From Janthinobacterium sp. (GTDB lineage Bacteria > Pseudomonadota > Gammaproteobacteria > Burkholderiales > Chitinibacteraceae): a stretch of 37,108 bases of DNA. Location: NCBI GenBank assembly GCA_025360045.1, contig JANYCY010000071.1, positions 1 to 37,108 of the forward strand, in the 5' to 3' direction. A model generated the notes under the pieces. It saw only the letters and a program-made list of their open reading frames with translations. It ran no database searches and had not been told where the DNA came from. Below are positions 1 to 13,359 of the stretch, piece after piece. Within the stretch, counting starts at the first letter, position 1, and each line of letters opens with the position of its first letter. A program made the position numbers and the translations under genes.

Positions 1-96
1 TACAGATGTGTGATTTCAACCTGATCCTTGCCGCTTTACCACGGCACTCCCTTCTACCCAAGTAAGACCATCTCCACGCATTTTTAATGCACTTGG

Positions 97-306
97 ATGG
101 CTTTGGCACGTCCTGTTTCGCATAAGACCGCCTGCGGCCACGAAACCCACTCTCATCGCACATTGCGCACTAAACATCACCCGGATTGCACTAATCTCCC
201 TGTGATTTTTTTTGCGTGTCGTCATGAGAGCATCCGCCAAGCTGCCGAGAACCTTGTTCTCGCAGCTTGGCCTTTAATTCTAGTGTCCGCTTCACGTGAG
301 CACTGA
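97..306 (+). CDS. Possible Ash/Icd-like small phage protein
   Basis: A 69-residue ORF starting at ATG 97; an in-frame stop at 85-87 excludes an earlier start. The N-terminal half is rich in His, Thr and Cys and is followed by a hydrophobic stretch (FFACRHES, then AAWPLILVSA). This pattern recalls the small Ash / Icd-like proteins found near primase genes in P4-type satellites, which would suit the primase at 1284. There is no clear ribosome binding site and the resemblance is by eye only. It may equally be a chance ORF, because the opposite strand is also open over 16-240. Confidence 0.33.
   Translation: MALARPVSHKTACGHETHSHRTLRTKHHPDCTNLPVIFFACRHESIRQAAENLVLAAWPLILVSASREH
237..270. repeat. 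Long imperfect hairpin
   Basis: Two 15-16 nt arms (237-252 and 256-270) are complementary except for one bulged C, separated by a loop of about 3 nt. No T-tract follows on the + strand, so this is not a typical terminator. It lies inside the doubtful ORF at 97-306. Confidence 0.55.
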
Positions 307-370
307 AAACCTGCCGCTATGCATTTAGAGGCATTCAAAAGGCCTTGTAGCCCCAACCAAAGGTGACTTC

Positions 371-1283: not shown

Positions 1284-2354
1284 ATGGGTAACGATAGTTC
1301 AATAGAAATGTATAAAGAACGGATAAAAAACACCATATCCTTATCCAACGGGCATTGGTTATTTATTCTTGAACGCCTGGGCATTGATAAACAATATTTG
1401 TCTGGTTCTAATACAGCATGCCCTGTATGCAAAGGAACAGATCGTTTTCAATTTCATGATAAAAATGACAATGGTGATTGGTTTTGTCGTAAAGCTGGCG
1501 GCCACAGTCAAAGTGGCAACGGCTTTAATTTACTAATAGAATCATATGGCTGGAGCTTTCATGAAGCACTGGTTGAAGTTGAAAAAACAATTCAATGCAA
1601 TAGTTACCGCACTGAATTGAAAAGATCCATTTCTCATTCAACTCAATTAAAAGAGAAACAAGATGAGACTAAAAAGATCCAGAAGATCCAGGAGATCCTA
1701 AAGTCCTCTTTTCCGTTTGAGAAAAATGATCCCGTAGGCCGGTATTTAAAGGCCCGTGGCTATGAAGGAATTGCAGATAAGTGTGGTTTTCTTTTTCATC
1801 CATCTTTGGCTTATTGGGAAAAGCAAGGCACCCAGTTTGTTAAGTTGGGCACTTATCCAGCCATGATCGCCAAAGTAGTCAACACCCAAGGCGAAATCAT
1901 AAGTCTCCATAGATTATGGCTCACACCAGAAGGGAAAAAAGCGCCAGTTCCATGTCCAAAAAAATCAATGCCTCCGATCGGTGGTTCAATGAAAGGCTGC
2001 TCAATACAGCTTTTTAAACCCGATAGTGGTCCCTTAGTTCTTGCGACGGGCATTGAAACATCGCTAGGTGCAGCAGCATTAACACAGCGGCCAGCATGGG
2101 CAACCATGTCTGACGCAATGCTTGGATCAGTCGTACTCCCAAGTCATACCACCGAAGTATGGGTATTTGGCGATAGCGACTTCCCCTGCACAAATAGTAA
2201 TAACCCAGGGAAAGATGCAGCCATAAAAGCTGCTCAAACTTATCGTGACCAAGGTAAAAAAGTTCGTTTATTTTTACCGCAAACACCAGGTTTAGATTTC
2301 GATGACGTTTGGCAAACAGGGCAATATAGCCAGCAAAACAAAATTGCTGCGTAA
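1284..2354 (+). CDS. P4-type zinc-ribbon/Toprim DNA primase
   Basis: The product is 356 residues and primes replication of the element by making short RNA primers. Residues about 46-76 hold a zinc ribbon of the P4 alpha/TraC type (CPVC, then WFCRKAGGH). Residues about 245-345 are a Toprim_3 domain with the acidic ATGIETS motif and the GDSDF metal-binding motif. There is no C-terminal helicase domain as in the 777-residue P4 alpha protein, so it is a stand-alone primase. The start has AGGAGA about 7 nt upstream. Genes of this type occur on plasmids, ICEs and satellites. It is preceded by the structured leader at 1118-1247. Family confidence is high; its role in this element's replication is inferred. 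Confidence 0.88.
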   Translation: MGNDSSIEMYKERIKNTISLSNGHWLFILERLGIDKQYLSGSNTACPVCKGTDRFQFHDKNDNGDWFCRKAGGHSQSGNGFNLLIESYGWSFHEALVEVEKTIQCNSYRTELKRSISHSTQLKEKQDETKKIQKIQEILKSSFPFEKNDPVGRYLKARGYEGIADKCGFLFHPSLAYWEKQGTQFVKLGTYPAMIAKVVNTQGEIISLHRLWLTPEGKKAPVPCPKKSMPPIGGSMKGCSIQLFKPDSGPLVLATGIETSLGAAALTQRPAWATMSDAMLGSVVLPSHTTEVWVFGDSDFPCTNSNNPGKDAAIKAAQTYRDQGKKVRLFLPQTPGLDFDDVWQTGQYSQQNKIAA

Positions 2355-3324: not shown

Positions 3325-4044
3325 TTATGCAGTAATTGCTTCAAATGCTTCATTCATATTTGCATTTGCGCTAATAGCCATCCCACGAATCGTGATCATC
3401 TTTTTGCAAAAATCTTTTTCATTTTCATCGGTACTGGCTCGTAATTTTGCGCGATAATCTGTCGTATCATTTACGATTTCATTTAATGTTTTTCCCGTTG
3501 ATCCAACACGCTGGAAAGCGGGGTTTTCATAGACAACACCACGGGATGGCGTCTGAAATGATTTAGTAATGAATTTATAACTTAATATTGTTTCAAACTC
3601 AGCGTCTGTATCGCTATCTATTTCCACACGATTAAATAATACGCGAATTTTTTTAGCAGGAACGCCCAGCTTATTCAGTAACCTGATTGTTTCGATGGTG
3701 TCTTTTTGCTGTTTATCTTCTGAAACTGTCGGCAGAATAAAAAGGTCAAACTCGCTATGAGAGTCAACGTTCTGAGCCATTAATTGCAAGAAAAGCTCTA
3801 CATTAGAAGAACCCACATCAACAACAGCAGATTCAAGCCCTAATAGCTCTCCATGCAAAACGTTAAATTGCCTGCCCCGTAACTGCTCAACTTCAATACT
3901 GTCAATTTGATCAGATGAATTAATGCTTTCAACTGAAAAATATTGAGCATTAGGCATACGAGGCATAAACATGTGCTGTGCCAGTGTTGATTTACCTACA
4001 TTGCCACTGTAATTCAAAATGCATAACTTGATATCTTTTTTCAT
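3325..4044 (-). CDS. stbB: StbB-like ParA/MinD-type ATPase
   Basis: The product is 239 residues from ATG 4044, preferred over TTG 4050 because AAGGA lies about 8 nt upstream of the ATG. A deviant Walker A (NYSGNVGKST) near residues 11-20 and the acidic VVDVGS segment near 115-120 match the StbB family of plasmid R388-type stb operons. StbB acts with StbA in plasmid segregation and influences conjugation. It follows the StbA-like gene by 11 nt and ends at a bidirectional terminator. Typical ParA proteins have a KGGxGK(T/S) motif, which is altered here in the StbB manner. The family call is by motif and gene order. Confidence 0.78.
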   Translation of the reverse strand: MKKDIKLCILNYSGNVGKSTLAQHMFMPRMPNAQYFSVESINSSDQIDSIEVEQLRGRQFNVLHGELLGLESAVVDVGSSNVELFLQLMAQNVDSHSEFDLFILPTVSEDKQQKDTIETIRLLNKLGVPAKKIRVLFNRVEIDSDTDAEFETILSYKFITKSFQTPSRGVVYENPAFQRVGSTGKTLNEIVNDTTDYRAKLRASTDENEKDFCKKMITIRGMAISANANMNEAFEAITA

Positions 4045-4055
4045 AAACAAATCCT

Positions 4056-4511
4056 TTATTTAGTTTTTTTACTTTGACGAAATTGTTTAATCATTTCGTC
4101 GTGATTAATTGGTTCTGGTGCAAATTCATAAGGCATGACTACATTGCCATTGCCAGGAACAACCACCTCCTCTTGCTTAATCTCAACACTGGGTTGAGCT
4201 GACGCATTAGATACAACTGTCTCAGCCACATGCGCCATGCTTGGGAGAACTGTCACCCCCCTACTCTCATGCCATGCTCGAGCAGCCTCTGCAATGGCTA
4301 CCGGCGCACGCTTTAAATGCCGACACCGAGAGAGATAAGTTGTAAATGTTCTCGCCGAAAAAAGAGGTATTTCTTCACGGATAAACTCAAATACTACTTT
4401 TGATGACTCCCCCGCCAGCAATCGCTTTTCAATCACGGGGTACATACTCTTGAACTTAGAGTACTGATCCTCCATTCCCGATTTGCCAACCCCAAAATTT
4501 GTGGATTTCAC
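4056..4511 (-). CDS. stbA: StbA/TraK-like DNA-binding protein
   Basis: A GTG start at 4511 is supported by GGAG about 7 nt upstream. The 151-residue product has an N-terminal helical domain of about 75 residues (KSMYPVIEKRLLAGESSKVV, then SARTFTTYLSR) typical of the TraK/StbA family that binds short direct repeats near oriT or the stb promoter. A Val/Glu/Pro-rich linker and a basic C-terminus (FRQSKKTK) follow. R388 StbA binds 9-bp repeats spaced by 2 bp; an 11-bp-period array lies directly upstream of this gene (4531-4629). It probably autoregulates the stbAB unit and directs segregation of the element. Confidence 0.75.
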   Translation of the reverse strand: MKSTNFGVGKSGMEDQYSKFKSMYPVIEKRLLAGESSKVVFEFIREEIPLFSARTFTTYLSRCRHLKRAPVAIAEAARAWHESRGVTVLPSMAHVAETVVSNASAQPSVEIKQEEVVVPGNGNVVMPYEFAPEPINHDEMIKQFRQSKKTK

Positions 4512-4530: not shown

Positions 4531-4629
4531 TACTACGTATTTGATACGTAGAATCATACTACACGTATTTTTTTCTAGCGCAAGTTTCCAACAAATACTA
4601 CGTATTTACTACGTATTTACTACGCATAT
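4531..4629. repeat. 11-bp-period repeats, likely StbA operator/centromere
   Basis: Three head-to-tail 11-bp units start at 4597, 4608 and 4619 (TACTACGTATT twice, then TACTACGCATA). Further copies are at 4531 (TACTACGTATT), a one-base-longer version at about 4558-4570, and an inverted copy at 4545-4552. The period matches one helical turn and the repeat-plus-spacer length of R388 stb repeats. The array fills the region upstream of the StbA-like gene and must overlap its promoter. Confidence 0.75.
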
Positions 4630-4699: not shown

Positions 4700-4749
4700 A
4701 AACTAAGCGCAGCACGTTTAAAAAATTAAGTTTGTGCTGCGCTTAGTTT
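4700..4749 (-). terminator. Strong terminator overlapping 3' end of RNase H-like gene
   Basis: Perfect 16-bp arms (4700-4715 and 4734-4749) are separated by 18 nt. On the minus strand a T6 run follows. The arm at 4734-4749 is made of the last codons of the gene that stops at 4726. Confidence 0.85.
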
Positions 4750-5718
4750 AGAACTCTTTTGTTCAACCACAACAGGTGTAGGTGGCACTAATCGCTGAGC
4801 AAGGTTCACAACCCTTCTTTCAGCCTTTGATGATTCAGCTAATGCATTTGAGATAGGGTTAAAGCCCATCAAAGTCGCATTAACAATTCGTTTCGCAAAA
4901 TTTGTATTGCTCCAACCATCCAAAATCATTCGTAGTCGGTTTAATTCTGTGCCATTACACAAAGGAATCAATGGGTCCAGATTATTTAAAGCGGCAGGTG
5001 ACCTAGAAATCACTGTTTCTTGATTAACAGCTTTCCAATAAGTGCCGTACTCAGCAATGCGCATAGAGATCAACCGAAGGGGGACTGATTGCATTCGCTT
5101 GCATAATGCATCAGCTAATTCATTTAAACTTCTTTCAACCTTCACTACATATAAATAGTCAAAGCTTTCTAATAGGTAATTTCTTTTCTCTACAGTTTCA
5201 TTCAAACTCAAACTAAGCGTCTTTTCAGCCCCATCCTTTTTATAATAAGGCACCCCACCTGACATAAACTTCACAACGGCCAATGCATCAGTGTGAATGA
5301 TTAATTTTCTTATTCCCATATCAACAGCTAGAGCCATAACGCGCAATACTGAATTTATTTCAGCATCAACACTATTACTACCTGCAGCCAGATCTGAATA
5401 CATTACTAATATATTTTTATTAGAAGTGCAAATATACCCACCAATTTGTAACCGATCAGGAGCACCACCATCACACCATGCCAAATGAAAGGACTCTACT
5501 AATGGGTAGTTTGAGTTTTCTTTTGCAGCAACAACCACCGCATTATTTTTCACCGAGCGGAGCTTACCAAGTAGGTTTCTATGTAAAGGGCGACCAAATG
5601 GGCGGTTTGATTTTAATTTTGGCATTATCGTTACATCATCAAAATCAGGGGCAACTTCAGTTGAGCGTGGCGGCTTAATAGATGTTGCAATAAAAATACT
5701 TTTTTCTTGATTAATCAT
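4726..5718 (-). CDS. RNase H-fold (RVT_3-like) protein of mobile element
   Basis: The product is 330 residues. Residues about 76-212 form an RNase HI-like domain of the RVT_3 type: CDGG (D83), DAEINSVLRVMALAVDMGIR (E120), IIHTDALAVV (D144) and NELADALCKRM (D203). All four expected metal-binding acids are present, so cleavage of RNA in RNA:DNA hybrids, or another phosphodiester reaction, is plausible. The first 75 residues (basic, Pro-rich) and last 120 residues are unassigned. It is flanked by terminators on both sides and so forms its own unit between the transfer genes and stbAB. A role in processing primers, R-loops or transfer DNA is inference. Confidence 0.75.
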   Translation of the reverse strand: MINQEKSIFIATSIKPPRSTEVAPDFDDVTIMPKLKSNRPFGRPLHRNLLGKLRSVKNNAVVVAAKENSNYPLVESFHLAWCDGGAPDRLQIGGYICTSNKNILVMYSDLAAGSNSVDAEINSVLRVMALAVDMGIRKLIIHTDALAVVKFMSGGVPYYKKDGAEKTLSLSLNETVEKRNYLLESFDYLYVVKVERSLNELADALCKRMQSVPLRLISMRIAEYGTYWKAVNQETVISRSPAALNNLDPLIPLCNGTELNRLRMILDGWSNTNFAKRIVNATLMGFNPISNALAESSKAERRVVNLAQRLVPPTPVVVEQKSSKLSAAQT

Positions 5719-5914: not shown

Positions 5915-6550
5915 TTAATTACTAATTTGCAAATTAGACAACATCACAAACGATGAAAATGATGCAAATCCAAGCCACAAAGGGACCATTGAAGCTGAAA
6001 TATACGAGGGAATACACAAGTAAACCCCCAGCAAGCCAATCAATGCAATTATGCCATGTTCTCCTACATTAAATAATATAGGATTTGACAATTTAAAATT
6101 AAATTTCCTAATTAACTTATTTGCCCTTGAATCAAAAAAAACACCGACAAAAAATACTGACAATGGTATTGCCCATAAGCAAAAAACCAGCGAGCGCAAG
6201 ATGAACCGATACCCTAAAATTACGGATGTAGCGACCACTTTCGACATTAAGTTATTACTTTTCGAAATGCCCTCGCCCACGGTTTCTCTCGTATGGTCTA
6301 CTTCAGCATCAGAAACGATATAATCTCGCATTGCAGCGCGAACATATTCAGAAGTCATCACAATTTTATATGTAGAATCGACTTTTGTTGAAATCCATTC
6401 ACTAGAGCCGCTACCGACTTGAGATTTTAATTCTGAAATTTCATACTGAATTCCACGTATAGCGCCAACAGGGCTTTGGGTGAAAACTCCATAAAAAATC
6501 ACACCAATGATTATAACTAGCCAGATGCGAAAGTGAATTAAGAAAGACAT
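5915..6550 (-). CDS. DUF4400 integrating-conjugative-element membrane protein
   Basis: The product is 211 residues with an N-terminal membrane segment (about 7-24), a helical soluble region, and at least three C-terminal segments (about 116-140, 163-181, 185-205). The GYRFILRSLVF ... LSVFFVGVFFDSRANKLIRK signature matches DUF4400, which is encoded next to traD in SXT/R391- and PFGI-1-type ICEs (s043/PFL_4697 family). Its precise role is unknown; it is thought to work with the coupling protein or channel at the inner membrane. It overlaps the preceding gene by 13 nt, indicating translational coupling, and ends the operon. Confidence 0.75.
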   Translation of the reverse strand: MSFLIHFRIWLVIIIGVIFYGVFTQSPVGAIRGIQYEISELKSQVGSGSSEWISTKVDSTYKIVMTSEYVRAAMRDYIVSDAEVDHTRETVGEGISKSNNLMSKVVATSVILGYRFILRSLVFCLWAIPLSVFFVGVFFDSRANKLIRKFNFKLSNPILFNVGEHGIIALIGLLGVYLCIPSYISASMVPLWLGFASFSSFVMLSNLQISN

Positions 6551-7044
6551 TTTAATAATGCCTTTTTTATTGCAGAGTCACGATACAACGTAGCCATACC
6601 TGGGATATCAAGAATTCGGCTGCACATCATATGGACTACAATGTCATCAAACTGAGGAGTATGATCTTCCAAGAAATCTTCTAAAATAAAATCAGGAGAT
6701 TGCTTAACTAATGATCTAAACTCCGTATAGGGTTCAACAAACGGCCTCCAGTTTAATGACTTATTCCCAATGTGAAATGCCGCTTTACAATGAACAACCT
6801 CAGACGTGAGCTCTACTAAGCCCAGTAAAAAGATTCGCATACCCTCGATTGTTTGCGGTTGATTGGCAGCAGTGTATTTATCTGCTGCATTGGCCAGACA
6901 GCGAATAAATAATGGTTCGTCATTAAATTTACAACCAGGAAAATCACCTAATTCAAACTGCAGCCTATTAATTGCATGATCTGCAGCTGGCCAAAGTGTT
7001 TTAACTTTACGAATTACATTGTGATAATTTTGAGGTCTTTTCAT
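6538..7044 (-). CDS. Unknown protein between traD and DUF4400 gene
   Basis: The product is 168 residues, soluble and largely helical, with conserved-looking aromatic/acidic stretches (FELGDFPGC, LNWRPFVEPY, DFILEDFLEDHTPQFDD). There is no signal peptide or membrane segment. It starts 12 nt after the traD stop and overlaps the DUF4400 gene by 13 nt, so it is part of the transfer operon. Small proteins occupy this slot in other MOBH elements but I cannot match this one to a named family. It may be an accessory factor of the coupling protein. Confidence 0.65.
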   Translation of the reverse strand: MKRPQNYHNVIRKVKTLWPAADHAINRLQFELGDFPGCKFNDEPLFIRCLANAADKYTAANQPQTIEGMRIFLLGLVELTSEVVHCKAAFHIGNKSLNWRPFVEPYTEFRSLVKQSPDFILEDFLEDHTPQFDDIVVHMMCSRILDIPGMATLYRDSAIKKALLKCLS

Positions 7045-7056
7045 TGTCTTTATTTC

Positions 7057-8892
7057 TTAATTAGTGATAATCGGCAAACGACCTTTAACTATCGTGCCAC
7101 CCGCAATAACTGCAAAATATTGAAGATTCGGAAGAGCCCCTAAGCATTCAGATGGGATTCTATCCATATCTTGAAAACCTCTTGATTTGGACATCCCCCC
7201 ACCAAAATGAGCTAGGTTTTTTTCTGAGGATGTAGAAACATTCTGTGATTCGTTTTCAATTTCGATGGGACATATCCCAAATTTGCGGGTAACAAAGTCC
7301 CATGTATCTGTGTCAACGGTTCTTAGTACAATTAAATTGTTGGCATTACCCAACAACTGAGTGGCCTCCGCTTGCGTGCCCATTTTAGCGGTAAAATCAG
7401 CAACGGTTTGTGTCGCAAACGTGTTATTAAAACCTGCGCCACGCGTTTTATTTAAAATCTGGACGTACCCTTTATTAACAGTTTCAGAGGCTTCATCAAT
7501 AAATACACTAATTTTAATTGGGTCGGAATCATAGTTATACCTTACACCAGCTGCCGCCTTTAGGTCCTCGATGAGCGATGTGCCGATAACGGTTCCGATC
7601 ACATCATTACTCAGCATATCCAAGCCCACGTAAACACATGCTTTTTGCTTAATTATCCGGTTCCAATCCCAAATTTCTCGTGTGTCATGAATATCAGCAG
7701 CATCAGGTGAAAAGAGATCCCCGACCTCCCCTGAGGTCAGCATTTTCAAAATTGGAATAACTTCAATCATGATCTTAGAGTAGTGCTTCTGATCATGCCC
7801 AGCTGACGCGATCAAGGACTCCAAATCTGGATCTTCATAATCAGACATGTGCTCTGAAAACAGCTCGATCAGCTTTTCACCCCGATGGATGTTTTTTGTT
7901 TTCTTCCCTGCCAGGGTCTGTTCAAAGACAGAAATACCTAGATGTTCTTTCAGTAGTTTTTCTAACACACGGGCAACCAGCTCAATAGGCGGTTGCAAAG
8001 CATTTTTTGCAATTTTCTTAATTGTGGGGCGTTCACCTAACAACAGTAGGCCATTCACAATATCGTTCATGACCTGCCAGCCATATTTAGTACTGAACGA
8101 CGAGCCACTACCTATCGTTTCAATCACAGACGTCAAACGGCTAGCAATCTCAGATTTACTGTTCCAGTTTTTTAGCGGGTCCATTCTGGCGGATAGTTCA
8201 GGGTGAGCCAGATGGATATATACAAACGGCTTCCCCTTTCTTAAACATTCTTTCCGTAGGCGCTCAGCCCAATCCTGATCGCCCTTAGGATCCATACAGA
8301 TCACTACATCATCACGATGAATTGCCTGAGTTGTTACCGTTTCATAAAGCCGAGTCTTGCCCGATCCCGTTGTGCCAATAACCAGCGTGTGTCCGGCCTG
8401 GGCGATAATTGGAAATTTTACAGAGACTTCTTCAGTCTCAACGCCGTGGATCCATGGTGCACCAATTGGGTTGCTATCAATAATACCGTTGGATTTTCTA
8501 AGTTTCTTATACCAACCAGGCACTTCTAAATGCTCTGGCTTGCTACGCATTAGGTCATACAGCCGCTGAGAATGCTCTGTATGCCACTCAAATCCATAGC
8601 CTAACCATATTGCATCAGGGACCTTCAAGCACCAATCTTGCAGCTGCTCTGACTTGACTGTGGGTAACTCTTTAACTTGCAAAGTATATTTTTTTTCCCA
8701 GCTATCCCATGACTGCTTCAGCCTTAAGCCGCTAAAAGAAAGTGCTAAAGCCGCATAAATAGAAGCCGTTCCAAGTGGTAGACCTGCTGCATTTGCAGCA
8801 ATGAGCGTACCAATCCCTGTTGTTGACCAAGCAAGTGCCGCAGTAGCCTCGTAAGTCGGCCTCCACGGGGTTTCATAGTTATTCAGAGCCAT
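7057..8892 (-). CDS. traD: TraD-type conjugative coupling ATPase
   Basis: This 611-residue type IV coupling protein of the VirD4/TraD class (SXT/ICE kind) couples relaxosome DNA to a secretion channel by ATP hydrolysis at the inner membrane. Two hydrophobic N-terminal segments (about 20-55) anchor it. Walker A is GTTGSGKT (about 173-180), DPKGDQDW follows at about 205, and Walker B is SVFIDEASE near 460; a late segment (GFNNTFATQTVAD) corresponds to the ATPase core. The ATG at 8892 is chosen over TTG at 8907. It overlaps the TraI-like stop by 14 nt. All ATPase motifs look intact. Confidence 0.9.
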   Translation of the reverse strand: MALNNYETPWRPTYEATAALAWSTTGIGTLIAANAAGLPLGTASIYAALALSFSGLRLKQSWDSWEKKYTLQVKELPTVKSEQLQDWCLKVPDAIWLGYGFEWHTEHSQRLYDLMRSKPEHLEVPGWYKKLRKSNGIIDSNPIGAPWIHGVETEEVSVKFPIIAQAGHTLVIGTTGSGKTRLYETVTTQAIHRDDVVICMDPKGDQDWAERLRKECLRKGKPFVYIHLAHPELSARMDPLKNWNSKSEIASRLTSVIETIGSGSSFSTKYGWQVMNDIVNGLLLLGERPTIKKIAKNALQPPIELVARVLEKLLKEHLGISVFEQTLAGKKTKNIHRGEKLIELFSEHMSDYEDPDLESLIASAGHDQKHYSKIMIEVIPILKMLTSGEVGDLFSPDAADIHDTREIWDWNRIIKQKACVYVGLDMLSNDVIGTVIGTSLIEDLKAAAGVRYNYDSDPIKISVFIDEASETVNKGYVQILNKTRGAGFNNTFATQTVADFTAKMGTQAEATQLLGNANNLIVLRTVDTDTWDFVTRKFGICPIEIENESQNVSTSSEKNLAHFGGGMSKSRGFQDMDRIPSECLGALPNLQYFAVIAGGTIVKGRLPIITN

Positions 8893-10468
8893 TGGTATGC
8901 TCAACAATAGATAATGTGCCTAAAATAGAAAGCATCACTGGCTTCGTCAGGGTATAAGCATCCAGTGACTTGCCATCGATTTTCACTTTCTTCTTGGTGG
9001 CTTTACCTGCCTCTGTTTTAAAAAAGCCTCCGACTTCTAACGATTGAGCAACACGCTTAGCGTCAATTCCATACTGGCCTAACAAATCAAGCGTAATTTG
9101 AATGTCATCGTCTATATGAATAAAATGCTTTTTTGTATCTTCATTTGACTGACGCAAGTCTTCAACAATGCTTTCCAGAACCAAAAGCCCAATTTGATCT
9201 AATTTTGTAACCAGATCCGCAAATGGAATCTCAACAAAGGACTCATCAGGATTATTTACCTCCCCTCGCTCCTCATTTTGGGTGTTGACATTAAATAAAT
9301 CAATTTGTGCTTCTGGCACTAAAGCTGCCCCGCCTTTACGAGAAACACTCGGTATGGAAACTGGATCTGGAGCACTAAAGGATGAGTCCAAAGGTAATAA
9401 ACTAGCAGGATCTCTCACTTTGATAGATTTAATCAATACACCATTAAATTCCACCATTTCATATGGAGAATGCTCACCTGTTGACGTACTAAAAAAACCG
9501 CACTTCAACAACGTATCAACAATCGTTGTTTTGCTACGTGGAATATCCACAAACCCATTAATCAATGCACATTCAATTAATTCATCAATGCATTCGATAT
9601 TAATAAATAAAATTTTATCTTTCTTTAATATACCCAACCCGAGGTCAACACTCCATCGATTCCTTTCAATAAGGAATCGAATGTTGTCAATAATCTTTGG
9701 TTCAAGATAAATATCCTGCCGTGATGTTGAAAAATTATGAGAAAGAGATTTGTCATGCTCAATTAATTTAGTGATGATTTTATTGAGAAGATTAGATAAG
9801 ACGGTTTGCTCACTACTTCCATAGAGCGAATTATTCAATGCAAATAAAATCTGCACATCCGCTTCAATAAGATAATTAAGGGAGTTTTTTAAAACGAGTT
9901 GTGAAAAAACGATAGGTGATAATTTTCGGGTATGAACAAAGGATGTCATTACACTGTGCGGCCAACTGGTAACAGCTGTGCCATGCTCCATCTCCCACTC
10001 TGCAAGTGGTCCCTTGTAGATATTCCAATCATGCAGGCCCGCTGCGCGTACCACCCTCCCATCAAGTAGCCAGCAAGCTCCTTGGTACAATCCTGCCAAA
10101 AATGCGGCATAACGCCATACAGGTTCTAGCTTACGTCTTTGAGCCATGGTTTCAGCTGCACAAAAAATAATTCCATCTGTGGCCTGCACACAGAAAAAAG
10201 CACTTTTCATGCAAAACTCTAACATCCCACCTGGATGTGCGAACTCAGCATTACTCGTTAATGGCTGCTGGCCAACATAAGAGGCAAGCTGCCGGATCGG
10301 CTGGGAAACCAACTCAGCACTGTTGGGCATACTGAGTAGAGACAAAATTTTTCTTTCGATCTCAGCGTACTGAAAATCTTGAGTCAACCTATTTACATTA
10401 AGCGTGTTTTTCAGAGGTTCATTACTTGCTTTGTCTATAGGCTTTTGTCGTGAAAATAGCTTAAACAT
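8879..10468 (-). CDS. traI: MOBH TraI_2-type relaxase homologue lacking HD motif
   Basis: The product is 529 residues, shorter than SXT TraI (about 716). Residues about 30-350 align by eye with the TraI_2 domain: HPGG at 78-81, then ML, E84 and F85 where the family has a histidine (HPGGLLxH). At 123-130 FLAGLYQG replaces the usual FLAALLHDIG, so the HD pair is Y128-Q129. The C-terminal part (about 420-529) resembles the TraI_2_C winged-helix domain (LLGQYGIDAKRVAQSLEVGG). Metal binding and hence nicking by this domain are doubtful. It is translationally coupled to traD. It could be a relaxosome scaffold or an inactive relic; the clean full-length frame argues for a function. Confidence 0.78.
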   Translation of the reverse strand: MFKLFSRQKPIDKASNEPLKNTLNVNRLTQDFQYAEIERKILSLLSMPNSAELVSQPIRQLASYVGQQPLTSNAEFAHPGGMLEFCMKSAFFCVQATDGIIFCAAETMAQRRKLEPVWRYAAFLAGLYQGACWLLDGRVVRAAGLHDWNIYKGPLAEWEMEHGTAVTSWPHSVMTSFVHTRKLSPIVFSQLVLKNSLNYLIEADVQILFALNNSLYGSSEQTVLSNLLNKIITKLIEHDKSLSHNFSTSRQDIYLEPKIIDNIRFLIERNRWSVDLGLGILKKDKILFINIECIDELIECALINGFVDIPRSKTTIVDTLLKCGFFSTSTGEHSPYEMVEFNGVLIKSIKVRDPASLLPLDSSFSAPDPVSIPSVSRKGGAALVPEAQIDLFNVNTQNEERGEVNNPDESFVEIPFADLVTKLDQIGLLVLESIVEDLRQSNEDTKKHFIHIDDDIQITLDLLGQYGIDAKRVAQSLEVGGFFKTEAGKATKKKVKIDGKSLDAYTLTKPVMLSILGTLSIVEHTNGSE

Positions 10469-10593: not shown

Positions 10594-11169
10594 TTAATTT
10601 TTCTTGTTTTTTTTGATACCTGTTAGACTTTTGCTTTTTGCCATCCATTTAGTCATTGACCCATTGCATATAGGGCATACATAGGTGCTCCTAAATCCAA
10701 ACGAGGGCAGGATATATAGCCGCCCGCAATTTTTCTTAGAACAAACAACCTCCATTACATGATTTGTATTTACGTGCGTAATTAGCACCCACAGTGTATT
10801 TATACAAACACGGGGCTCAATCCCGGCTATATTGCAAATACCTATGTATAAGCGCATGGTTGCATGCATTGATTCTGATAAATCAAAACCAGCAGACTCT
10901 AATCGGCGGTACTCTGATAAACAAAAAGAAAATTCAATAACGTGTTTTACCGATCTAAAAAAATACTCACCGGATGTCGTTTTAGGCCGTGGCCCCATTT
11001 TTTTATAATTTGGCGCTAAACGAATGCGCTGTTTAAAATGCATTGTTGGAAAAATAACTTCGAGAATTTCAGAACGCGCACCTAAGGCTGAGAATGAAGT
11101 AGCAAGATATTCAAGCCGGTGCTTTTCATCTATCACCTCAATCCAGGAATTTTTAGGCATTTTCTGCAT
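10594..11169 (-). CDS. FlhC-like transcriptional activator subunit (SetC/AcaC type)
   Basis: The product is 191 residues. A C-terminal zinc site is visible: C143, C148, C165 and C168 (VVCSKKNCG and VCPICNG), as in FlhC, whose four cysteines bind zinc, although the first pair here is C-x4-C rather than C-x2-C. A middle helical region (YRRLESAGFDLSESMHATMR) fits the family. FlhC-type proteins on SXT/R391 (SetC) and IncA/C plasmids (AcaC) form a hetero-hexamer with an FlhD-type partner to switch on transfer genes. It overlaps the FlhD-like gene by 17 nt and is followed by 124 nt that could hold the target promoter of traI. Confidence 0.72.
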   Translation of the reverse strand: MQKMPKNSWIEVIDEKHRLEYLATSFSALGARSEILEVIFPTMHFKQRIRLAPNYKKMGPRPKTTSGEYFFRSVKHVIEFSFCLSEYRRLESAGFDLSESMHATMRLYIGICNIAGIEPRVCINTLWVLITHVNTNHVMEVVCSKKNCGRLYILPSFGFRSTYVCPICNGSMTKWMAKSKSLTGIKKNKKN

Positions 11170-11452
11170 CTCTCATCTCATGAAATACAACCATATTTAC
11201 TCCATAGCCCTGTTGCAATGCAGAAATAGGTTTTAGTTTAAAAATGGGTGATGTCATGCGATCGGCAATAGCCTTTAGATCTTCCACATCACCATCGCGT
11301 AATAAATCAACATCTGCGGGATGAATTCCATACTCTGCCATTGCCAGAGCAGAATCACGTATCATTTCGTCTCGAATTTGCATTAAAATACGATAATTAA
11401 GATTTTTTCTTATTTTTTCGTGTCTCAAACTCACAGATGTAATTTCATTCAT
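11153..11452 (-). CDS. FlhD-like transcriptional activator subunit (SetD/AcaD type)
   Basis: The product is 99 residues, close to FlhD length. Residues about 16-66 (NLNYRILMQIRDEMIRDSAL...MAEYGIHPADVDLLRDGDVEDLKAIADRM) follow the FlhD pattern of a long helix, a Gly-Ile turn and a second helical pair. GGAG lies about 11 nt before ATG 11452. It starts 12 nt after the replication-like gene and overlaps the FlhC-like gene. It would act with the FlhC-like subunit as activator of the transfer operon; whether host FlhDC cross-talks is unknown. Confidence 0.68.
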   Translation of the reverse strand: MNEITSVSLRHEKIRKNLNYRILMQIRDEMIRDSALAMAEYGIHPADVDLLRDGDVEDLKAIADRMTSPIFKLKPISALQQGYGVNMVVFHEMRDAENA

Positions 11453-11464
11453 TTCTATAGCTCC

Positions 11465-12586
11465 CTAATTAGCTATCAAATTTTTATTAAGCAATAATTT
11501 CATATACGCAGGTAATGAATTAACCAAGTCGTCATTTAACGTTGGAACAGGTAAATTTTGGGTAACATACTGAAGGCCAGTCATTCGTGGAGGCGAGTTT
11601 AGATTCTCTCCTGCACCAGCATCATTTTTTACGCGATGCTCTGAAGATGAAAATGAAGCAAATGGTGCATCATCATCCTTCCAGAAATAATCTGGCACAT
11701 TCAATTTACCATTATTTGCGTTTTTGACTAGCGCATTGAAGTACGCAATAGGCTTGGCTATTTGTTTTATGCTTAATTTTTGAAGAAATATTCGAGCAAC
11801 GTCAGGTTGATACGTTTTTTGACATTGCCTCATCAATATTTCAATAGTCCGGCATTGACTATTAGGGAGCAGTTTTGCAATTAAATTTAGAAATTCAGCA
11901 CCAATTTTTCTAGTTTTAACTTTGGCGCTATCTGCTTCAAATACCTGGCTGGATGCATTTTCATTTGAAGTACCAGCGATTTGGTTCGAAGCATCAATAG
12001 GCTTAATAACCTGAGAAGCTGCACCAGTAGGGGTAGAGTTATCCACACCAAGCTGGTTATCGCCCTGTGGTTTGGTTTTAGAATTACCAACATCCTGTAC
12101 AGATAAGGGAACGGGAGTTTTTGCTGTTGTAGAGCGGACTTTTTTGGCTTGATTGCTAGCTTTGTAACCGGGAAAGAAACGACTTACTACGCGTTGAATC
12201 AACTCCGAATTACGCACCCAGATCATTAGATTACGCTTTCTGTCATAGTACGAGGCATACAGTTTGCCTTTAAAAGGTTCAGCTTCAGCAAAAAATGCGG
12301 TCGCACTTTCATAACGTGAGCCAACACTGTCAAATGAAGCCCTGACAGTTTTAGCAGACAGATGAAGCGCCTCACACATGCTCTGACCCTCTTTGTACAG
12401 GCGATGCTTTGGAGATGGTTCTAAAAATTTATAGAACGTTTTTTTCCCTTTCTTGCCCATAACCTCAAACCAGTGTTCCAGCTCTAAAATGAGCAGAATT
12501 AGGTTACCAGGGCGAGCATAGCCCTGATTAACGGCATGAGTAGAAAGGGCGACGCTAATGTCGCGAATGGAGGGGTTAGTGCTCAT
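11465..12586 (-). CDS. Putative winged-helix replication protein
   Basis: The product is 373 residues from ATG 12586 (GTG 12592 is also possible; a GAGGGGG lies upstream of both). Residues about 10-125 look like a DNA-binding winged-helix unit (GNLILLILELEHWFEVMGKK, then SAKTVRASFDSVGSRYE). A Thr/Ser/Asn-rich linker spans about 145-215. A second helical domain follows (about 220-290: AEFLNLIAKLLPN...IKQIAKPIAYFNALVKNA), reminiscent of DnaD/DnaT-like or ICE replication proteins. It heads the FlhDC-tra cluster and has inverted repeats upstream, as many Rep genes do. I cannot name the family; a regulator is the main alternative. Confidence 0.5.
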   Translation of the reverse strand: MSTNPSIRDISVALSTHAVNQGYARPGNLILLILELEHWFEVMGKKGKKTFYKFLEPSPKHRLYKEGQSMCEALHLSAKTVRASFDSVGSRYESATAFFAEAEPFKGKLYASYYDRKRNLMIWVRNSELIQRVVSRFFPGYKASNQAKKVRSTTAKTPVPLSVQDVGNSKTKPQGDNQLGVDNSTPTGAASQVIKPIDASNQIAGTSNENASSQVFEADSAKVKTRKIGAEFLNLIAKLLPNSQCRTIEILMRQCQKTYQPDVARIFLQKLSIKQIAKPIAYFNALVKNANNGKLNVPDYFWKDDDAPFASFSSSEHRVKNDAGAGENLNSPPRMTGLQYVTQNLPVPTLNDDLVNSLPAYMKLLLNKNLIAN

Positions 12587-12788
12587 TGACACACCCCCTC
12601 TTTTTGAAAAGAGGACGACTTTTTCGGCAAGCGAAAATCGTGCGCGATCGGCGGCGCAATACGTTGATTACATGAATTATTCACGCAAATATACCTTGCG
12701 GAAATTGCATCGCCGATGTACAATTTCCGCAGTTATTGGGAGTACCGGTGCGCAATCTCAGGGAAGAAATTAGGCGCACCCTGTTTTG
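12587..12788. repeat. Nested inverted repeats upstream of putative rep gene
   Basis: Four inverted repeats occur in about 185 nt. They are CCTCTTTT/AAAAGAGG (12597-12614); ATCGGCGGCGCAAT (12647-12660) with 12 of 14 matches to the complement of 12704-12717; an 11-bp perfect pair TGCGGAAATTG (12697-12707) / 12721-12731; and GGTGCGC/GCGCACC (12747-12753, 12774-12780). The right arm of the second and left arm of the third overlap, so they are mutually exclusive. This could be an operator, replication origin or recombination site. No gene is supported between 12587 and 13022. Confidence 0.55.
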
Positions 12789-13022: not shown

Positions 13023-13098
13023 TGGTGCCGACGGCAGGAATCGAACTCGCGACCCCCTGATTACAAGTCAGGTGCTCTACCAACTGAGCTACATCGGC
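13023..13098 (-). tRNA. tRNA-Thr (TGT), copy 3 of the transcript
   Basis: A 76-nt cloverleaf on the minus strand begins GCCGATG and ends CGTCGGC-A-CCA with CCA encoded. The anticodon stem is CCTGA/TCAGG with loop CTTGTAA, giving anticodon TGT (Thr). It is identical to the other two copies. As the copy nearest the accessory region, its 3' end is the likely integration target. Confidence 0.97.
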
Positions 13099-13146
13099 AT
13101 AAACTTTACAACACCTAAAAAAACTTAGGTTTGACTACTGTAGTAC

Positions 13147-13222
13147 TGGTGCCGACGGCAGGAATCGAACTCGCGACCCCCTGATTACAAGTCAGGTGCT
13201 CTACCAACTGAGCTACATCGGC
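13147..13222 (-). tRNA. tRNA-Thr (TGT), copy 2
   Basis: It is identical in sequence to the copies at 13023 and 13284, with the same CTTGTAA anticodon loop and encoded CCA. It is separated from its neighbours by 48-nt and 61-nt spacers that differ in sequence. Confidence 0.97.
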
Positions 13223-13283
13223 GTAAATGTTACAACTTAAATTGTGCTGCCAAGTAAGTAAAAACTTACCCTTAAATATTTTC

Positions 13284-13359
13284 TGGTGCCGACGGCAGGA
13301 ATCGAACTCGCGACCCCCTGATTACAAGTCAGGTGCTCTACCAACTGAGCTACATCGGC
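13284..13359 (-). tRNA. tRNA-Thr (TGT), copy 1 (promoter-proximal)
   Basis: This is the first gene of the leftward tRNA transcript and is identical to the other two copies. A sigma70-like promoter lies just upstream at 13370-13398. Confidence 0.97.

Follow-up and report, generated by a model that had tools for sequence, protein, structure and literature searches.

A clade of MOBH relaxase homologues without the 3H and HD motifs in betaproteobacterial plasmids and integrative elements of Iodobacter

Introduction

Nicking is regarded as the defining act of a relaxase. What, then, is the role of a relaxase homologue that is encoded by an intact gene in a transfer operon and has lost the motif residues on which nicking depends? 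We address this question for TraI*, our name for the TraI_2/MOBH homologue encoded at 8879-10468 (minus strand) of a 37,108-nucleotide stretch of DNA (hereafter the window; positions 1 to 37,108 of contig JANYCY010000071.1, assembly GCA_025360045.1), from a bacterium deposited as Janthinobacterium sp. and counted here among nine Iodobacter genomes. TraI* and its relatives resemble the MOBH relaxases of IncA/C plasmids (TraI), SXT/R391 and the gonococcal genetic island (GGI) in having a TraI_2 domain and an SXT-type TraD encoded directly downstream, and differ from them in the absence of the 3H and HD metal motifs. According to the available text of a review, cleavage by GGI TraI needs both of these motifs (PMC12857230). 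A prediction made earlier from the letters of the window (the original prediction) had described a structural or repurposed relaxase rather than simple decay, possibly dependent on another nuclease for nicking.

Loss of the catalytic motifs in TraI*

TraI* is a full-length, intact open reading frame (ORF) of 529 amino acids (aa), as had been predicted. The Pfam TraI_2 model (PF07514) matched it at 100.2 bits (cut-off 23.9), which identifies it as a MOBH protein by domain homology, and the NCBIfam MobH equivalog model scored 129.2 bits, under its cut-off of 200. In an alignment with HD-bearing relatives, the columns of the pattern HHH...H...HD are occupied in TraI* by A74 E75 F76, F85 and Q129 G130, so that all six positions are lost. 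The replacement of the single histidine by F85 agrees with the original prediction, which had passed over the additional loss of 3H. The predicted loss of HD is also real, but the HD columns fall on Q129-G130, one position after the Y128-Q129 first proposed. In the stretch HPGG (78-81), which had been taken as a retained motif, G80-G81 are family residues, whereas H78 is not a family histidine and stands in the column of the first glycine of HHHRGAGG.

HD dipeptides occur at 146-147 and 238-239 in all three Iodobacter copies of TraI*. The other 20 HD-less rows all lack HD at these columns, so that a shifted motif was ruled out in favour of loss. An HD-bearing sister protein was likewise not found: the genome of the window gave no second TraI_2 match in a search to E 1, the nine Iodobacter genomes gave no second, HD-bearing TraI at E up to 0.001, and each genome that carries the gene has one TraI_2 match.

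The gene directly downstream (7057-8907, minus strand) encodes a TraD coupling protein of the SXT type (TIGR03743, 605.6 bits, cut-off 366) that keeps the Walker motifs, GTTGSGKT and VFIDE. The predicted overlap with this motif-intact TraD was confirmed, and amounts to 29 bases if the first TTG is the start of TraD and to fewer with a later start. A TraI_2_C-like end, also predicted, received no support from Pfam: at E up to 0.01, TraI_2_C matched neither TraI* nor any of the eight other rows of alignment A1, and seven HD-bearing controls gave no match either. Compared as profiles, the C-terminal parts of the HD-less and HD-bearing groups matched weakly (hhalign E 1.9e-5, probability 78), and the Iodobacter C-terminus alone did not match the HD-bearing profile (hhalign probability 0.5).

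Phylogeny and selection of the HD-less proteins

The loss is not peculiar to the window. Across the 399 genomes surveyed in the order, 18 TraI_2 matches lay outside the genome of the window, in 13 genomes; nine of these proteins are HD-less and nine HD-bearing. A survey of the class (369 genomes) gave 40 matches, from which 28 loci were aligned besides one in a Hydrogenophaga-like genome (L076) and that of the window itself (L077). All six motif residues were present in 24 of the 28; another locus, L099, is truncated and has HHD in the final three motif positions. Orthologues with the motif loss, which the original prediction had proposed to look for, thus exist, and they form a supported clade. 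In an IQ-TREE tree of 57 TraI_2 domains, built with the catalytic columns excluded and after removal of L003 (identical in the shown columns to a Hydrogenophaga plasmid protein) and a near-copy from one sister Iodobacter genome (G400), 17 HD-less rows joined at support 100/99, nested among HD-bearing rows. The motif states required three changes in all on this tree, which contains several long branches, among which L018 and L020 meet. The members of the clade come mainly from betaproteobacterial plasmids, and their usual neighbours are FlhC, TraD and DUF4400. No description of an HD-less MOBH clade was found among the matches listed in the literature searched, most subscription papers lying outside it.

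Three further loci lie in the other main branch of the tree. L101 keeps the last three motif residues, including HD, and has lost 3H, and L103 and L105 are TraI_2 proteins also without HD. These are probably separate losses, and at least one further loss of HD is likely because L103 and L105 sit in that other branch.

TraI* is under purifying selection. The ratio of nonsynonymous to synonymous divergence (dN/dS) was 0.21, 0.11 and 0.06 among the three Iodobacter copies, and a reading as a pseudogene was rejected on these values. Between the copies of the window and of the second sister genome (G406), the part that was once catalytic (codons 37-150) had a dN/dS as low as 0.025; the two parts that follow it gave 0.12 and 0.11, and the two ends 0.23 and 0.28. 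Most of the TraI_2-domain residues that reach 80% conservation across 23 HD-less rows belong to the fold (P69, G80, G81, W118, W148, W158 and others).

Plasmid relatives and their annotation

Nineteen plasmid records were fetched of 1054, hand-picked from the first 26 rows; 12 encode HD-less proteins (W01-W12) and seven HD-bearing ones (W13-W19). The HD-less proteins are shorter, with 585-723 aa in plasmids and 529 aa in Iodobacter, whereas the seven HD-bearing plasmid proteins measure 716-1178 aa. In the HD-less family the annotation usually places FlhC immediately before mobH: nine of these 12 records have FlhC or FlhD just upstream (Azonexus, pBN2, two Janthinobacterium plasmids, PBL-H3, Polaromonas JS666 plasmid 1, Rhodoferax, Azospira and Sulfuricystis) versus none of the seven HD-bearing records within the fetched stretches. 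In the Azonexus and Paraburkholderia plasmids, the order FlhC-MobH-TraD-orf-DUF4400 continues into VirB11-B2-B3 and a VirB4 or VirB4-size gene; in a Janthinobacterium plasmid, traL and traE take the place of this VirB run. The plasmids pBN2 and pAZI09 and JS666 plasmids 1 and 2 encode an HD-less TraI followed by TraD as in Iodobacter, but replicate as plasmids, whereas the Iodobacter elements are integrated at tRNA-Thr.

All six HD-less relatives scanned passed the NCBI MobH cut-off, and the product name was "MobH family relaxase" on 11 of the 12 HD-less plasmids and "TraI domain-containing protein" on the remaining one. Automatic labels can therefore say relaxase where the known catalytic site is gone. 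Typing calls six of these 12 plasmids non-mobilizable, although they may use an unrecognised nickase. MOB-suite types the HD-less W06, W07, W10, W11 and W12 as MOBH, and its profile thus also accepts HD-less proteins.

Integrative elements carrying TraI* in Iodobacter

The TraI* gene was found in three of the nine Iodobacter genomes, always at the same tRNA-Thr site: in the genome of the window (G000) and in the sister genomes G400 and G406. In both sister genomes a perfect repeat of 77-78 bases over tRNA-Thr bounds an island, of about 113 and 121 kilobases (kb), respectively. In the window, the right attachment site is a tRNA-Thr(TGT) at 13023-13098 (minus strand), of which an identical copy lies at the left end in G400 and G406. 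Just inside the left end of G400 lies a tyrosine integrase, followed by VirB11, VirB2, a VirB3-like protein (under cut-off), a VirB4-like protein and VirB6. The series, recognised by family searches, goes on with VirB8, VirB9, VirB10, a lytic transglycosylase, a secretin, a pilus ATPase and PilS, and PilO matched under its cut-off; VirB5 and VirB7 were not established. The VirB4-like protein matched that of pBN2 at 417 bits, and the DNA of G406 matched the integrase, VirB and pil stretch of G400 at about 97%. The islands of the two sister genomes are thus end-to-end integrative and conjugative elements (ICEs) with integrase, attachment (att) repeats and mating apparatus, recognised in G400 by protein families and in G406 by att repeats and matching DNA. 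The type IV secretion system (T4SS) of G400 is of VirB type with pil genes and not of the F type of SXT/R391 and IncC elements.

The copy in the genome of the window appears less complete. A TraC-family search gave a match in G400 and G406 and none in this genome, which also had no TraH match. The 20-kb T4SS stretch of G400 had no match in it either, but the contig of the window begins inside the island, so that an assembly gap is possible; a second 20-kb stretch of the G400 island was found in pieces only, on another contig. The copy is either a remnant or incompletely assembled. The first bases of the window (1-328) recur as a repeat family of about 430-490 bases at several sites in the islands of G400 and G406, and the contig probably breaks within this repeat.

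Synonymous divergence (dS) of the genome of the window from G400 and G406 was 0.06-0.28 in nine island genes and 0.54-1.42 in nine flanking genes, all of the right flank. Because the island values are far below those of the flank, they suggest that the island passed between species after their split, with all three copies HD-less.

A possible role of TraI* in DNA delivery

We lean towards the view, with slightly better than even confidence, that TraI* is a non-catalytic adaptor of the relaxosome and the coupling protein, and that another enzyme does the nicking. The HD-less clade has lost the metal-binding motifs while retaining the fold residues, the operon position and the selection; TraI* itself would be unable to nick, and would deliver either the processed DNA or the enzyme that nicks it to TraD and the T4SS. 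Recruitment of the complex to TraD would be the delivery role kept by the clade, and the nick at the origin of transfer (oriT) would be made by another protein. A precedent appears in the available parts of a study of SGI1 (PMC6414798): loss of IncC TraI cut SGI1 transfer by about five logs, not fully, so that TraI was not essential; the authors proposed that TraI helps to carry the relaxosome to the T4SS, and that MpsA (of MpsA/MpsB) is an atypical relaxase of SGI1. In SGI1, however, TraI comes from the helper plasmid, whereas here the HD-less TraI belongs to the element's own operon, and the TraI of pRA1, related to the IncC copy, is HD-bearing in our alignment. That a MOBH lineage became a permanent adaptor without catalytic function while a nickase of the tyrosine-recombinase type was recruited, so that nicking and delivery are split over two proteins, is a further step that we regard as possible, though on the unlikely side. 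If true, a conserved lineage without the catalytic motifs would separate delivery from cutting and make this split testable.

Several observations weigh against the adaptor. The function of TraI* may be idle in the genome of the window, since no T4SS was found there. The case for movement of the island leans on the comparison with that genome and on one flank, and between G400 and G406 the dS ranges of island (0.02-0.27) and flank (0.16-0.34) overlap. The Iodobacter TraI* has a long branch (2.27), an odd letter make-up and a weakly supported place inside the clade (85/57). No usable structure model supports the reading: an AlphaFold model from a two-sequence alignment was discarded (mean predicted local distance difference test score 31), and a sequence search against solved structures returned a single chance-level match (E 0.38). 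A search for oriT noted just the TACTACGTA repeats upstream of the stb genes, with no tie to transfer, and three of the 12 HD-less records (W05, W06 and W11) carry a MOBP relaxase by PLSDB typing.

The failure to find the T4SS DNA in the genome of the window and the long Iodobacter branch would suit simple decay of the relaxase gene, as would the second island stretch found in pieces. Decay is nevertheless contradicted for the family by a full-length ORF in three genomes, by the dN/dS values and by the same loss across a whole clade; we consider it very improbable, and it could apply just to the recent state of the strain of the window. The preference of the original prediction for a structural or repurposed protein is supported by these same points and by the apparent movement of the island in HD-less form. 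A protein that is still a relaxase, cleaving oriT by a different, unrecognised active site, would explain why the PF03432 relaxase, the one other relaxase family searched, was absent from six of seven HD-less plasmids tested (W08-W12 stood outside this test), as it was from G000, G400 and G406; the seventh, from Hydrogenophaga, has it. This account gains from the sequence E-x-H-R, which replaces HD-x-G in eight of 23 HD-less rows, but the other 15, those of Iodobacter among them, lack it. Inside the domain, Q95, R111 and T315 are the only polar residues to reach 80% conservation among these rows; not one His, Asp, Glu, Lys, Cys or Tyr does so. Q95 and R111 are the commonest residues in HD-bearing rows too. 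T315 and, outside the domain, D12 are conserved in the HD-less clade and not in HD-bearing rows, which leaves room for a new active site and counts against an adaptor; T315, however, lies near the end of the domain. We see no obvious clade-wide substitute for the catalytic site in these alignments, and judge continued relaxase activity quite improbable. Only slightly more probable is that the TraI*-TraD pair was repurposed outside DNA transfer, for protein export or regulation. The loss of the metal motifs, the linkage of the T4SS to type IV pilus genes and cargo of type VI secretion system (T6SS) type, recognised by inspection in G400 and G406, would suit such a role, but the elements retain integrase, att sites and mating apparatus and the island apparently moved between species.

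If TraI* acts as an adaptor, the leading but weak candidate for the nicking enzyme is a tyrosine-recombinase family, PF12835, and we hold its role as nickase doubtful. When five HD-less plasmids, one of them in part, were compared with the G400 element, all five had matches to its TraI*, TraD and toprim primase, and four to its 376-aa tyrosine-recombinase-like protein. Over whole records, any PF12835 match was found in 10 of 12 HD-less versus one of seven HD-bearing plasmids (Fisher's exact test: p = 0.006), and a match above cut-off in 8/12 versus 0/7 (p = 0.013); PF12835 is also present in both ICEs. Judged by eye in a 13-row alignment, the catalytic R-K-H-R-H-Y residues are kept. Recombinase-like relaxases are already known, namely MobK, TcpM and MpsA, which are reported, in the available text of one paper (PMC8152469), to have no core-binding domain. 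The candidate shares with them catalytic-type residues but differs in an N-terminal SAM-like domain (PF12834 match at residues 84-151), and its role in transfer is putative. Moreover, W01, W09 and the genome of the window had no PF12835 match, and W02 and W10 had matches below cut-off only. Six of the ten positives were known before the test, and in previously unseen plasmids the counts were 4/5 HD-less versus 1/7 HD-bearing (p = 0.07), among rows that are not independent and are confounded by host lineage. Proteins of this type occur on 172 plasmids, counted regardless of MOBH, most commonly in Acinetobacter, Cupriavidus and Burkholderia. The gene lay near a ParM/StbA-like gene (by inspection) in all four plasmids examined, and this neighbourhood suggests a role in maintenance. 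The predicted involvement of another nuclease is thus plausible but not proven, its best candidate being correlated with the HD-less state in data partly known beforehand, and the original interpretation as a whole is partly supported.

Other genes of the window and the elements

Downstream of TraD, the transfer operon continues on the minus strand with a conserved 168-aa ORF (6538-7044) of no convincing family, with dN/dS of 0.04-0.06 between the window and G400 or G406, and with a DUF4400 membrane protein (5915-6550; PF14348, 48.6 bits) placed in the same order in the Azonexus and Paraburkholderia plasmids. Upstream of TraI*, also on the minus strand, are an FlhC-family activator (10594-11169; PF05280, 35.4 bits, cut-off 27), which adjoins mobH in relatives, and an FlhD-like partner (11153-11452), named from its position, with no convincing family, where a Rhodoferax plasmid annotates FlhD at the matching place. 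Farther upstream lies a replication-like protein (11465-12592, minus strand), weakly similar to STY4528 (NF040582, 21.8 bits, under the cut-off of 130).

On the other side lie an RNase H-like protein (4726-5718; PF13456, 34.5 bits, cut-off 21.6), a protein in the StbA position (4056-4511), taken by adjacency as partner of StbB and without a convincing family, and an StbB family protein (3325-4050; NF041292, 277.5 bits, cut-off 200), all on the minus strand. The TACTACGTA repeats, in part with an 11-base period, stand upstream of the stb genes at 4531-4626, in a stretch largely conserved in G400, and presumably resemble the stb/oriT region of R388. A toprim/zinc-ribbon primase-like protein (1284-2354, plus strand; PF23639, PF13362 and PF08273) has relatives in all five HD-less plasmids compared. 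The names StbA, FlhD-like, VirB5-like, ParM/StbA-like, VgrG/T6SS-type, bet/exo and RES toxin are putative names given by inspection, with no family match.

The sister elements differ in cargo. The DUF4400 and RNase H-like genes are separated in G406 by a VgrG-like gene (named by inspection) and its neighbours (L026 7479-13140) but adjoin in G400, where cargo is found instead between the RNase H-like gene and the stb genes. The G400 ICE also encodes an AbiTii defence protein (PF18864; L045 10778-11695), near which is a gene pair resembling a RES toxin-antitoxin system by inspection only, and a second recombinase, 394 aa long and XerC/D-like, whose partner is a KfrA_N protein (L044 16268-18108), with matches in four of five HD-less plasmids. 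The DNA beside the 3' end of the tRNA-Thr array varies among most Iodobacter genomes without the TraI* island, and the stretch at 13023-13359 of the window, together with the matching site in the eight other Iodobacter genomes, is a variable insertion site.

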